Shown here: piece after piece, positions 40,995 to 48,654 of the stretch | Numbering within the stretch: the stretch's first letter is position 1 | How the letters are laid out: each line of letters opens with the position of its first letter | NCBI RefSeq assembly: GCF_041154675.1 | Contig: NZ_AP031322.1 | Location: forward strand, 558,001 to 622,000 | Reading direction: 5' to 3' | Length of the DNA: 64,000 nt | From: Sulfurisphaera javensis | Lineage (GTDB): Archaea; Thermoproteota; Thermoprotei_A; Sulfolobales; Sulfolobaceae | Position numbers and translations under genes: made by a program | Notes under the pieces: generated by a model | The model's input: the letters and a program-made list of their open reading frames with translations, nothing else | Databases searched by the model: none | What the model was told of the DNA's origin: nothing

Positions 40995-41801
40995 CTACAT
41001 ATTTGGTAATTTGTAGATTAGACCTTGCAATATTGTTCTCTCATCAATCATCTTTTTCTTGTAATCATAATATAACTCGGCTTTGCTTTCTGCAGTCAAA
41101 GTGTTTCCATTTATAACGTCTTCTTTTGAGGCTTTCCCTTCTAATATACTAAATTCGAATTTGTCCTCTTTATATGTTATTTCGATTTTATTTTTATATG
41201 GATATACATTATTACTGATCATAGTAAAAATAAAGATTGAATCTAATGAAGTAAATAAATTAAGACTTACTTTATTTTTTGATTGAATAATTTGAGTAAC
41301 GCTTCTAAAATCAGTAAATATATTTCTTTTTCTATCATAATTTTTAACAATTCCATTTTCGAATTCTACAACTATATCATCATCATTTTGAGTCTTTATT
41401 GCTTTCTCTAATTCTTCTATGTCAGAATATGGCATAAAAGTAAATCTAACTTTTCCATTTAATATTACAGCTTTTGGAGGTATCCAATTATTTTTTATTA
41501 TCATTATTTCAGTTTTTTCACTAATTGGTGTAGCATAATAAATAAAATGTACGAAATTTTCTTTTTGTTCAGAATCTAATACTTTGATAGCTTCTTTTAT
41601 GAATAAATCTCTATTATAGCTAAATTTTCTAAAAATTTCATTTAATTTAGGATCCAATTTTTTAATCAAGTTCTTTAATAAATCTTTTTCTAAATAAAAT
41701 GATATTAAAGGCACTAAATTATTTTTATTTGCATAATCTAGAGCATGTTCAGCTAGCGATTTAGTAATATTTGTTTCCATGAATTGTTCTAACGAATGCA
41801 C
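40995..41801 (-). CDS. unknown soluble protein
   Basis: 268 residues, rich in Lys, Asn, Ile and Glu, without membrane segments or recognisable motifs. The helical N-terminal half (KNLIKKLDPKLNEIFRKFS) is followed by a beta-rich part. GTG start at 41801 is favoured because TTTTTAATTG lies about 25 bases upstream; ATG 41780 is the alternative. No operon partner. Low complexity in A/T-rich codons is no stronger than in its neighbours. Confidence 0.6.
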   Translation of the reverse strand: MHSLEQFMETNITKSLAEHALDYANKNNLVPLISFYLEKDLLKNLIKKLDPKLNEIFRKFSYNRDLFIKEAIKVLDSEQKENFVHFIYYATPISEKTEIMIIKNNWIPPKAVILNGKVRFTFMPYSDIEELEKAIKTQNDDDIVVEFENGIVKNYDRKRNIFTDFRSVTQIIQSKNKVSLNLFTSLDSIFIFTMISNNVYPYKNKIEITYKEDKFEFSILEGKASKEDVINGNTLTAESKAELYYDYKKKMIDERTILQGLIYKLPNM

Positions 41802-41962
41802 AAAGAGATATTACTGAAACAATTAAAAACCTATTTGCCCATAAAAAGACCAAAAGATTTATAAATATATAGAAAATAAATAGTTTAAATATAGCATTTC
41901 AGTTATGAAACGAAGTGAAACTATGTTAACTATTTAATAGCGAAACGTTCAGAGTAAATTTG

Positions 41963-42439
41963 ATGAAGGCTCTAGTACTCGGTTTAATAGCAATGGTAGC
42001 TATAGCTACTGGAATATTCATAGCCGGTGTAGAAGGATATGGTCCAATAGCATATATTTCATACCATGTGCAAGTATCAAATTCTACTGCAGAAATAATA
42101 CCAGCATACATAAACTTAGGTAATTTATCGTCTGGTATGAAAGGTAATGTAACAGTAAATGCAACTATAGTTATATCTAATAATGGTACGTATGTTATTC
42201 AACTTCTCCATTCAGAAAAATTAAGTAAAGTATTTAGTGAGTTTAATGTCACTATTGAAATTGCAAACAAGACATTATTACTTAATTTAGAACAAACCAA
42301 AGTCAATGTTAATTTAACAGCAGGAAAATATATAGTGTACATAAAGATATTCTATGAAGTTTCAAACCATCCTAGAGGAGACTTAAATGTAAATAAGGAA
42401 CCATTATTAATAATACATCCTAAAGGAGATAAAGATTAA
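41963..42439 (+). CDS. secreted Asn-rich protein with a possible class III or ordinary signal
   Basis: 158 residues. The hydrophobic N-terminus KALVLGLIAMVAIATGIFIAGVEG is followed by an exported domain with many N-x-S/T sequons (NSTAE, NGTYV, NVTIE, NKTLL, NLTAG). It may be a pilin-like or surface protein; no C-terminal anchor, but the first segment can stay as one. ATG 41963, one codon after an in-frame TTG. Its stop is 13 bases before a C/D box guide RNA. Confidence 0.65.
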   Translation: MKALVLGLIAMVAIATGIFIAGVEGYGPIAYISYHVQVSNSTAEIIPAYINLGNLSSGMKGNVTVNATIVISNNGTYVIQLLHSEKLSKVFSEFNVTIEIANKTLLLNLEQTKVNVNLTAGKYIVYIKIFYEVSNHPRGDLNVNKEPLLIIHPKGDKD

Positions 42440-42452
42440 ATCTTTTTTCTTT

Positions 42453-42506
42453 CAGTGATGAACGCGTCCTTATCTGATTTGTGAAGACATCCACCGGGAC
42501 TGATTA
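42453..42506 (+). ncRNA. C/D box methylation guide RNA
   Basis: All boxes are present in order: box C GTGATGA (42455-42461), box D' CTGA (42474-42477), three-base spacer, box C' GTGAAGA (42481-42487), box D CTGA (42500-42503). Both guides are 12 bases, the usual archaeal length. The D guide CATCCACCGGGA is complementary to TCCCGGTGGATG, like the CGGTGGATG stretch near the 5' end of 23S rRNA. The D' guide ACGCGTCCTTAT is complementary to ATAAGGACGCGT. By the fifth-base rule each would direct methylation of a G. Abuts the nitrilase gene stop tail to tail. Confidence 0.88.
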
Positions 42507-43220
42507 ATCCAGTTCATTAACGTCGAATTGCCTATATTCTTTTAACCTCTCAATTCTAAAATTCATATAAGAAAGAGGATTAATATCTACAACGATATAT
42601 CCTTCCTTATCTCCTAACTCACCTACGGGTTTTGGTTCAATAAATCTGCCTCTTAAAGCTGGGATATAAGCAATACTCATTCCCAGATATTCTGGGGGAG
42701 AAAAAGTGTTTGAGTTAACAATAGCAATCCTATTTTCTAATACTCTAACTTTTAAATACTCTCTCCATAAATCTATTCCATCTACGGGTATTTTAGAAGG
42801 AACTAACAAAATTTCAACACCTCTAAGAAACATTTCTCTTATGATTTCTGGGAAATCTATGTCATAACAAATAGATATTCCTATCTTAACTCCTCTATAT
42901 TTAAAAATAGTTGCAGAACTTCCAGAAATTAATCTGTTTTTCTCATCTCCAAATAGATGAATTTTCTTTGCTATAGATTTAATGTTACCGTTTGGGTCTA
43001 TTATTGGAGAAATTATTGACACGCCATCTTCAACAGCTCCAGGTATAATATATGCAGTGTACTTCTTAGCTAATTGTTGGAAACTCTGTAAAGGTAATTC
43101 ATCAAGGGTTTTTACCCATTTTTCCGGTAACAGTACTATTTCAGCGCCATTCTTTAGAGACTCTTCAGTGAGAAATAATGAATTAGCTATATTTGATGGT
43201 TGTACAATACCAATCTTCAA
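42504..43220 (-). CDS. nitrilase-superfamily carbon-nitrogen hydrolase
   Basis: Hydrolyses an amide or nitrile. Catalytic triad is complete: E33 (LPEKW), K86 (KKIHLFG) and C118 (ISICYDIDFPE). 238 residues, a short member like the omega-amidase or NAD-synthetase-like branch. Overlaps the CBS/HPF-like gene end by 4 bases, so they are co-transcribed. The substrate is unknown. Confidence 0.9.
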   Translation of the reverse strand: MKIGIVQPSNIANSLFLTEESLKNGAEIVLLPEKWVKTLDELPLQSFQQLAKKYTAYIIPGAVEDGVSIISPIIDPNGNIKSIAKKIHLFGDEKNRLISGSSATIFKYRGVKIGISICYDIDFPEIIREMFLRGVEILLVPSKIPVDGIDLWREYLKVRVLENRIAIVNSNTFSPPEYLGMSIAYIPALRGRFIEPKPVGELGDKEGYIVVDINPLSYMNFRIERLKEYRQFDVNELD

Positions 43221-47342: not shown

Positions 47343-47990
47343 ATGGTTTTGCTTACAGTAAGGGATGTAATATGGGGGATTATTCTTACTGTCTGGGTCG
47401 CAGTTGTCACTCTTTATATTTCTAAAATTGTGAGTAAGCATACTAGTATTTACGTTGCAAGGAAAGTAATTCATATGTTAGGTGGTGGTTTAGTTGCAGT
47501 ATTAGCGCCTTTTGTGTTTACATCCCCATTAGTTCCAATAATTGCCTCATATACTTTAATGAGTTATTTAATTTTTAAGAGATTCAAAGACGGAATAATG
47601 GGTTGGTTTCAAGAGAAAGATAATTATGGTGAGATATTTTATACCTTTTCTTATGGTACATTACTTCTTCTAATGTGGGTATTAGATGGTAATTATTGGA
47701 ATACAAAAGATGTTTTTATAGCTTTACTTCCTATATACTATATGTCATTTGGTGATGGTGTAACTGGAATAATAAGGAATTATGTTTACAAGAGGAGAGT
47801 TAAAGGATTTTGGGGTAGCGTAGGAATGGCTATAGTTAGCGTTCCTTTAGGTTATTATTTCTTTGGAGTACCAGGGGCGATATCTGGGTTGATTGCTACA
47901 ATAGTTGAGGTATTACCATTGATAGACGATAATATAAGTATTCCATTTGCCTCTTTCTTATTCCTTTATGCCATCATAAAACTGTTTTAA
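47343..47990 (+). CDS. CTP-dependent lipid kinase-like membrane protein (dolichol kinase/VTE5 family)
   Basis: 215 residues with about seven hydrophobic segments. Family hallmarks are [11 protein letters not shown] near the N-terminus and [14 protein letters not shown] with [11 protein letters not shown], then [19 protein letters not shown]. Relatives phosphorylate dolichol, diacylglycerol or phytol with CTP; in archaea a polyprenol or geranylgeraniol type substrate is likely. The end overlaps the convergent nuclease-like gene by 33 bases. Confidence 0.8.
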
Positions 47991-48593
47991 CATATAGAAA
48001 CTTTTACTATCTATTATATTGATTTTCATTGCTTTTGCATTAACAGTTATAATTCCATCTATTCTAGAACTTTTAACATCACCTAAAGTGATATCGGGAG
48101 TTTTAGAGTATTTTCTTATTAATCTCATTATGTTTTTAACTTCTTCTTCAGTTCTTTCATTAGGATCTTTTAATAATGCTCTAGGAATTGGTGGTAAATA
48201 AAACGAGGGAACAGCAATATAAAATTGTTTTGCTGTACTACTATATCTAGCCGTTTTGAGTGCTAATCTACCCATTAAGAATTCTTCAGCATTTATAGCA
48301 TTACTTGGAGGCACATAACCAGTTTCTACTTCTATTCCAATATCATAGCCTTTTATAGCATAAATATCCATAACTCCACCACTTACCTCAACTTCTACGT
48401 AAACCTTATATCCATTATTTGCAAGATAACCAGAAAGAATAAGTTGTAATACAGAATGGTTTATATTGAGTATGCCAACTTTACTTAAACCTAATAATTT
48501 TTTGTAAATGTCCTCTAGATTTGCACTTTTACCATAATACATTATGACCTTCTCGTAGATATGTTGTAAATCTTTAACTCTATCCCCTTTCAT
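47958..48593 (-). CDS. putative nuclease-fold protein (restriction endonuclease-like)
   Basis: 211 residues from ATG 48593. Upstream in-frame codons up to 48629 fall inside a C/D box RNA gene, which argues for the later start. A helical N-terminal part ([15 protein letters not shown]) is followed by a core with GGVMDIYAI (D76) and [10 protein letters not shown] (E88, E90), the shape of a PD-(D/E)XE site, then [11 protein letters not shown] cannot name a family. It may bind DNA or RNA without cutting, since Lys is replaced by Glu. Confidence 0.6.
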
Positions 48594-48601
48594 TTTTATC
48601 A

Positions 48602-48654
48602 CTTCAGGCTGGGAAGCGTTCTTCACCAATCAGTAAACCGTCGTATCATCATTA
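48602..48654 (-). ncRNA. C/D box methylation guide RNA
   Basis: Read on the minus strand: box C ATGATGA (48646-48652), box D' CTGA (48630-48633), three-base spacer, box C' GTGAAGA (48620-48626), box D CTGA (48604-48607). Guides are 12 bases each. The D' guide TACGACGGTTTA is complementary to TAAACCGTCGTA, close to the conserved 23S segment containing CCGTCGTGAGACAGG. The D guide ACGCTTCCCAGC is complementary to GCTGGGAAGCGT. A TAAATTA box lies about 20 bases upstream. The downstream gene starts 11 bases after box D. Confidence 0.88.

Follow-up and report, generated by a model that had tools for sequence, protein, structure and literature searches.

The 64-base gap (42440-42503) between two tail-to-tail genes of Sulfurisphaera javensis raises the question of whether so short an interval holds a gene of its own and, if it does, on which RNA the product would act. 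A preliminary description of the window, by which we mean the whole stretch of 64,000 nucleotides analysed here, had placed a C/D box RNA in this gap and proposed it as a likely double guide for the 5' part of 23S rRNA.

Box and guide architecture of the RNA

Reading the plus strand of the gap, we found boxes C, D', C' and D together with two 12-base guides at window positions 42455-42503 (Table 1), so that a C/D box RNA between the tail-to-tail genes, and the length of 12 bases given for its guides, are both borne out. The elements follow one another as C, guide, D', three bases, C', guide and D, which is the order of a C/D sRNA with RUGAUGA and CUGA boxes apart from one base in C', and each of the two guides, which stand beside D' and D, has a length within the usual range of about 10-12 bases. 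The boxes had been called perfect, and this holds for C, D' and D but not for C', where one base departs from the consensus; all but one (G001) of the 11 other syntenic orthologs described below share the RTGAAGA form of C'. Similarly, the RNA does stop at the nitrilase stop codon, which box D directly adjoins, but with a C-to-D length of 49 bases it takes up most and not the whole of the gap, 15 bases separating the end of the 159-aa ORF from box C.

Table 1. The guide RNA and its neighbours in window coordinates
Feature	Position	Strand	Remarks
Box C	42455-42461	+	GTGATGA, matches consensus RTGATGA exactly
D' guide	42462-42473	+	ACGCGTCCTTAT; predicted target 23S G54 (Rfam-model numbering)
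Box D'	42474-42477	+	CTGA, exact
Box C'	42481-42487	+	GTGAAGA, one base off consensus RTGATGA
D guide	42488-42499	+	CATCCACCGGGA; predicted target 23S G24 (Rfam-model numbering)
Box D	42500-42503	+	CTGA, exact; invariant in the alignment of 15 sequences
159-aa ORF	41960-42439	+	Without Pfam match; about 80-82% identical in three congeners
Carbon-nitrogen hydrolase (nitrilase-type)	42504-43220	-	PF00795, E 4e-16; stop codon 42504-42506
268-aa ORF	40995-41801	-	Without Pfam match; syntenic marker with homologs in all 12 syntenic genomes

A search of the window with a strict four-box pattern yielded two places, 42455-42503 (+) and 48604-48652 (-), and the same pattern was absent from 20 Mb simulated with a first-order Markov model of the window. 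By plain folding the RNA is not unusually stable (z 1.19; -0.28 and 1.39 for two orthologs), and these scores speak neither for nor against a protein-bound kink-turn.

The other strict match, at 48604-48652 (-), is a second C/D sRNA candidate. Each of its guides forms 9 Watson-Crick pairs and one G.U pair with the organism's own 23S, at sites 22 bases apart with predicted nucleotides 2724 (D') and 2702 (D), so that it is perhaps a double guide also; its 3' part overlaps the start of an ORF (47958-48629, minus strand) called from a TTG.

Pairing of the two guides with the organism's own 23S rRNA

The host genome, a single contig of 2,569,661 bases, contains one match to 23S. We scanned both guides over 5.9 kb (L100), comprising the 23S gene and the 2.8 kb before it, presumably with the 16S gene, counting only places at which the fifth base upstream of the D box is paired. 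The best place for the D guide was GCCCGGTGGATG in the organism's own 23S, with 11 contiguous Watson-Crick pairs (-2 to -12) against 8 at the second-best place, in agreement with the complementarity near the 5' end of 23S that had been claimed for it. For the D' guide the best place was AGAAGGGCGCGG, also in the organism's own 23S, where 8 Watson-Crick pairs and one G.U pair are contiguous (-3 to -11), against 7 Watson-Crick and 3 G.U pairs at the second-best place. The alignment of both guides to the organism's 23S, suggested as a check in the preliminary description, thus puts their best sites in the 5' part of the molecule, that of D' 30 bases downstream of that of D. A D' site just downstream had been expected, but the target reads AGAAGGGCGCGG and not GAAGGACGTG as quoted there, and the assignment of this guide is less certain. 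By the rule of the fifth base, G24 (D guide) and G54 (D' guide) are the predicted sites of 2'-O-methylation, counted from the start of the match to the Rfam 23S model; we take them to correspond to about G23 and G54 of Escherichia coli.

Taken alone, the D' match is unremarkable and no better than that of shuffled guides, 160 of 300 of which reach at least 8 Watson-Crick pairs, while the 11 pairs of the D guide are reached by 3 of 300. A joint match, defined as at least 11 Watson-Crick pairs for D and at least 8 with at most one G.U pair for D', within 100 bases of each other, occurred for 1 of 20,000 pairs of shuffled guides and at 5 of 20,000 places drawn at random from the window; with the D threshold loosened to 9, the counts were 7 of 2,000 and 14 of 3,000, respectively. 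The sections of PMC4644070 considered here require at least nine consecutive Watson-Crick pairs that cover the +5 base, and relax this for some double guides with targets within 100 bases. The D guide satisfies the nine-pair rule, while the D' guide, with its 8 Watson-Crick pairs and one G.U pair, passes only under the relaxed rule for double guides; given the D' assignment, the distance of 30 bases puts both targets well inside 100 bases of one rRNA.

Orthologs in the family and their conservation

A DNA search found matches in 9 of the 31 genomes of the family, the organism's own included, and a pattern of box C plus the D' guide raised this number to 15. In a profile built from these 15 sequences, which like their alignment still includes three hits from g3 and g5 later set apart as another RNA, all 15 score at least 43.3 bits and everything else in 197 genomes of the order at most 29.5 bits; the 197 include the family's 31, and the search filters lose some weak matches. 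Run on the family alone, the same profile placed the next best match after the 15 at 27.9 bits. By DNA, pattern and profile searches together, no homolog was found in 16 of the 31 family genomes.

According to the flanking genes, 12 of the 15 hits occupy the same locus: four in the organism's own genus (g1, own genome included), seven in g7 and one in g2. Compared pair by pair from C to D, the g1 sequences are on average 94.2% identical, against 70.3% upstream and 72.7% downstream, and those of g7 87.0%, against 49.7% and 49.2%. The earlier reading as a likely double guide accordingly gains support from the paired sites in the organism's own 23S and from orthologs in two other genera.

Relatives of the RNA beyond the family are possible. 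The hits at or below 29.5 bits in other genomes of the order have mainly the boxes in common; C-to-D extraction at 16 loci (L118-L132 and L145) yielded six, and in two of these (L127, L131) the D' guide starts with GGGCGTCCTA and is partly like that of the host RNA. Among the low-scoring loci, guides were compared with 23S at L128, together with RNAs of the organism's own genome.

A matched guide-target difference between genera

Of the 31 genomes, 9 showed the target stretch of 23S, which is partly masked in several others. For the pairing comparison we used the genome's own 23S for three of the 12 syntenic genomes (G000, the host, and G016 and G001) and that of a congener for eight, leaving out G028, whose C-to-D sequence equals that of G030. 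The 23S of the host (g1) and of g2 reads CCCGG, and the D guides of both genera have G at -2; in g7 the 23S reads GCCGG and the D guide has C at -2 in all seven genomes, while the predicted methylated G is unchanged. Judged from these sequences, with one readable 23S (G016) standing for g7, position -2 of the D guide appears to differ in concert with the 23S between genera so that pairing is kept. Overall, the D guide forms 10 Watson-Crick pairs in two g1 congeners and 10 plus one G.U pair in g2; with the g7 23S it forms 8 in six of seven genomes, which is below the nine-pair rule, and 9 in G017.

The D' guide of g7 forms 9 Watson-Crick pairs in four of seven genomes and 8 with one or two G.U pairs in G012, G018 and G016, and wobble changes at two different positions of the guide keep the pairing. 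Other 23S places also accommodate D' guides: GTAAGGGTGTGT fits the one of g2 (G001) better, with 9 Watson-Crick and 2 G.U pairs, AAAAGAGCCTGA ties on Watson-Crick pairs in G016, there without wobbles, and GTGAGGGCGCTA in G014 offers 9 Watson-Crick pairs and one G.U pair against 9 Watson-Crick pairs.

Gene arrangement at the locus

Each of the 12 syntenic genomes has a homolog of the 268-aa ORF in the flanks retrieved (E 3e-37 or better), and 11 of the 12 have one of the nitrilase there, the organism's own genome counted in both cases. Neither the 159-aa nor the 268-aa neighbour in the window has a Pfam match, and the same is true of three neighbours in relatives. All four g1 genomes have box D directly against the nitrilase stop codon. 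In g2 the end of the nitrilase lies about 7 bases beyond box D, and in g7 the final 32-35 bases of the RNA are antisense to the 3' end of a different ORF of 163-169 aa, nitrilase homologs being found elsewhere in the flank in six of seven genomes. Because the arrangements in g2 and g7 differ in this way from that in g1, abutment on the nitrilase is not a conserved trait.

In the seven g7 genomes (L027, L028, L029, L081, L084, L087 and L101) the protein encoded by the antisense ORF ends in AGG.LH without exception, and this protein end is tied to the sequence of the guide RNA.

Since g7 and g2 have no plus-strand ORF of at least 90 codons ending within 150 bases upstream, the RNA may be transcribed from a promoter of its own in these genera, while in g1 co-transcription with the preceding 159-aa ORF is possible. 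No clear conserved promoter was seen by eye in the flank alignments.

Look-alike guide RNAs at other loci

The three remaining hits, from g3 (G002, G003) and g5 (G005), were first taken as orthologs, and were dropped, leaving 12, because their flanks show a different downstream gene. The start of this gene is similar to the start of one that follows another C/D RNA in the organism's own genome (G000:C1:473481-473539), a match of just 26 residues with 35-46% identity (E 6.6e-6 to 1.3e-5), so that the three hits are likely, if not proven, to be another guide RNA at another locus. The own-genome candidate and its apparent g3 and g5 counterparts (L071, L072, L030) share with the host RNA the boxes and a similar D' guide, the one in G005 having the same first 12 bases as those of G013 and G017 in g7, but the own-genome candidate lies upstream of another gene and its D guide differs. 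Its D' guide fits GTAAGGGTGAGT in 23S with 10 Watson-Crick pairs, about 1,900 bases away, and that of g3, for which G003 was used as G005 has no readable 23S, fits the corresponding GTAAGGGTGTGA with 9 Watson-Crick pairs and one G.U pair. Because both look-alike D' guides fit this stretch, the likeness among the D' guides appears to reflect two similar stretches of 23S.

At this second own-genome locus (L147, G000:C1:473400-473650) box D stands a few bases before the apparent TTG start codon of the gene, and g3 and g5 have a similar RNA upstream of a gene that appears to be homologous. Elsewhere in the genome, outside the window, two C/D-box-like RNAs lie head to tail on the minus strand (L146, G000:C1:509700-510050), box C of the second following box D of the first without any spacer.

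As for a second RNA with the same D target, three places outside the known family (in G000, G023 and G010) were considered and set aside, none being a clear four-box RNA for this site; the one in G000 (942001-942014) is C/D-like, and the best rRNA matches of its D guide are 8 Watson-Crick pairs at other 23S sites. The pattern TCCACCGGVNCTGA with one mismatch allowed matched in 30 of the 31 genomes and had many control matches too.

Comparison with known RNAs

At gathering score, Rfam 15 named only a tRNA in the window and none of ten loci of the RNA. Of 21 sub-threshold matches to the stretch, 14 are to sR or snoPyro C/D families, which we take to be archaeal. The full-length C/D architecture of sR12 (RF01147), the best of these matches, and of sR9 (RF01312) aligns with the host RNA, but the scores lie below gathering (31.1 against 38 bits and 26.5 against 36, respectively) and the letters of the guides differ, so that the RNA falls outside sR12 as defined there.

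In the sections of PMC4644070 and PMC7994747 considered here, archaeal C/D sRNAs resemble the host RNA in their boxes, in guides of 10-12 bases and in the N-plus-five rule, double guides likewise having two targets within 100 bases of one rRNA, and these sections revealed no difference in kind. PMC4644070 counts 262 of 489 archaeal C/D sRNAs, about half, as double guides, proposes that the pairing of double guides also aids local folding, and reports that targets are less dense in a large part of domain I. As far as these parts of that paper go, the host RNA fits their picture of double guides, the D' guide by the relaxed rule only. The portions of the literature covered, PMC3325985 and PMC12817955 among them, contained nothing on this RNA or its two sites.

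Discussion

We consider it very probable that the gap holds the gene of an ordinary double-guide archaeal C/D box sRNA. Boxes, guide complementarity, conservation and one matched guide-target difference are observed in the genomes, and so are the genes for the protein partners L7Ae, Nop5 and fibrillarin, the host encoding fibrillarin (E 1.6e-104), a Nop protein (E 1.8e-80) and L7Ae (E 3.6e-34).

The strongest competitor, although still unlikely, is that the D guide acts on G24 while the D' guide is weak or drifting and serves another RNA or none. It would account for a D' match that is not exceptional by itself, for the better fit of another 23S site in G001 and the about equal alternative places in G014 and G016, and for the g3 look-alike, whose similar D' guide fits that other site. 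Yet the best D' site in the organism's own genome falls 30 bases from the D site, four of the seven g7 genomes keep 9 Watson-Crick pairs there, and the wobble changes at two different positions preserve pairing, all of which speaks against it. That the RNA would serve also, or instead, as a cis-antisense or 3'-end element on the adjoining nitrilase mRNA is far less probable: the contact between box D and the nitrilase stop codon throughout g1, which suggests it, is lost in g2, and in g7 the RNA overlaps a different ORF with the nitrilase homologs mostly elsewhere in the flank.

Least credible of all is a chance arrangement of short motifs. The boxes are indeed short, and 66 of 20,000 shuffles and 106 of 20,000 window places give a single guide with at least 11 Watson-Crick pairs to rRNA, but conservation across genera already contradicts this explanation, and architecture, paired targets, synteny, raised conservation and the -2 difference, taken together, argue against it.

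For the double-guide sRNA, the known mechanism, in which L7Ae, Nop5 and fibrillarin assemble on the RNA and the +5 paired base is methylated (PMC4644070 and PMC7994747, in the parts considered), offers a model. By analogy with the family, the locus would be transcribed and the transcript would form a kink-turn at C/D and a kink-loop at C'/D'; L7Ae would hold both turns, Nop5 and fibrillarin would then join to complete the RNP, and both guides would pair with the 5' part of 23S rRNA. Fibrillarin would 2'-O-methylate the target nucleotide that pairs with the fifth base upstream of each D box, namely G24 and G54, and the two simultaneous pairings may, again by analogy, also assist local folding of 23S. 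A bolder version, which we regard as improbable, sees the RNA mainly as a two-handed folding clamp on 23S positions 20-31 and 50-61, with methylation secondary, and extends to the overlap in g7. If it were true, the 5' segment of 23S would be kept open or spaced while the remainder of domain I is being made, and in g7 the guide RNA would dictate the end of a neighbouring protein.

As an ordinary double guide, the RNA is a new example of a well-known kind, and the general picture of archaeal C/D sRNAs is unchanged by it. It adds a well-supported guide RNA family that has no Rfam 15 name at gathering score, and its two exact predicted rRNA sites, together with the matched guide-target difference between genera, provide a testable prediction.
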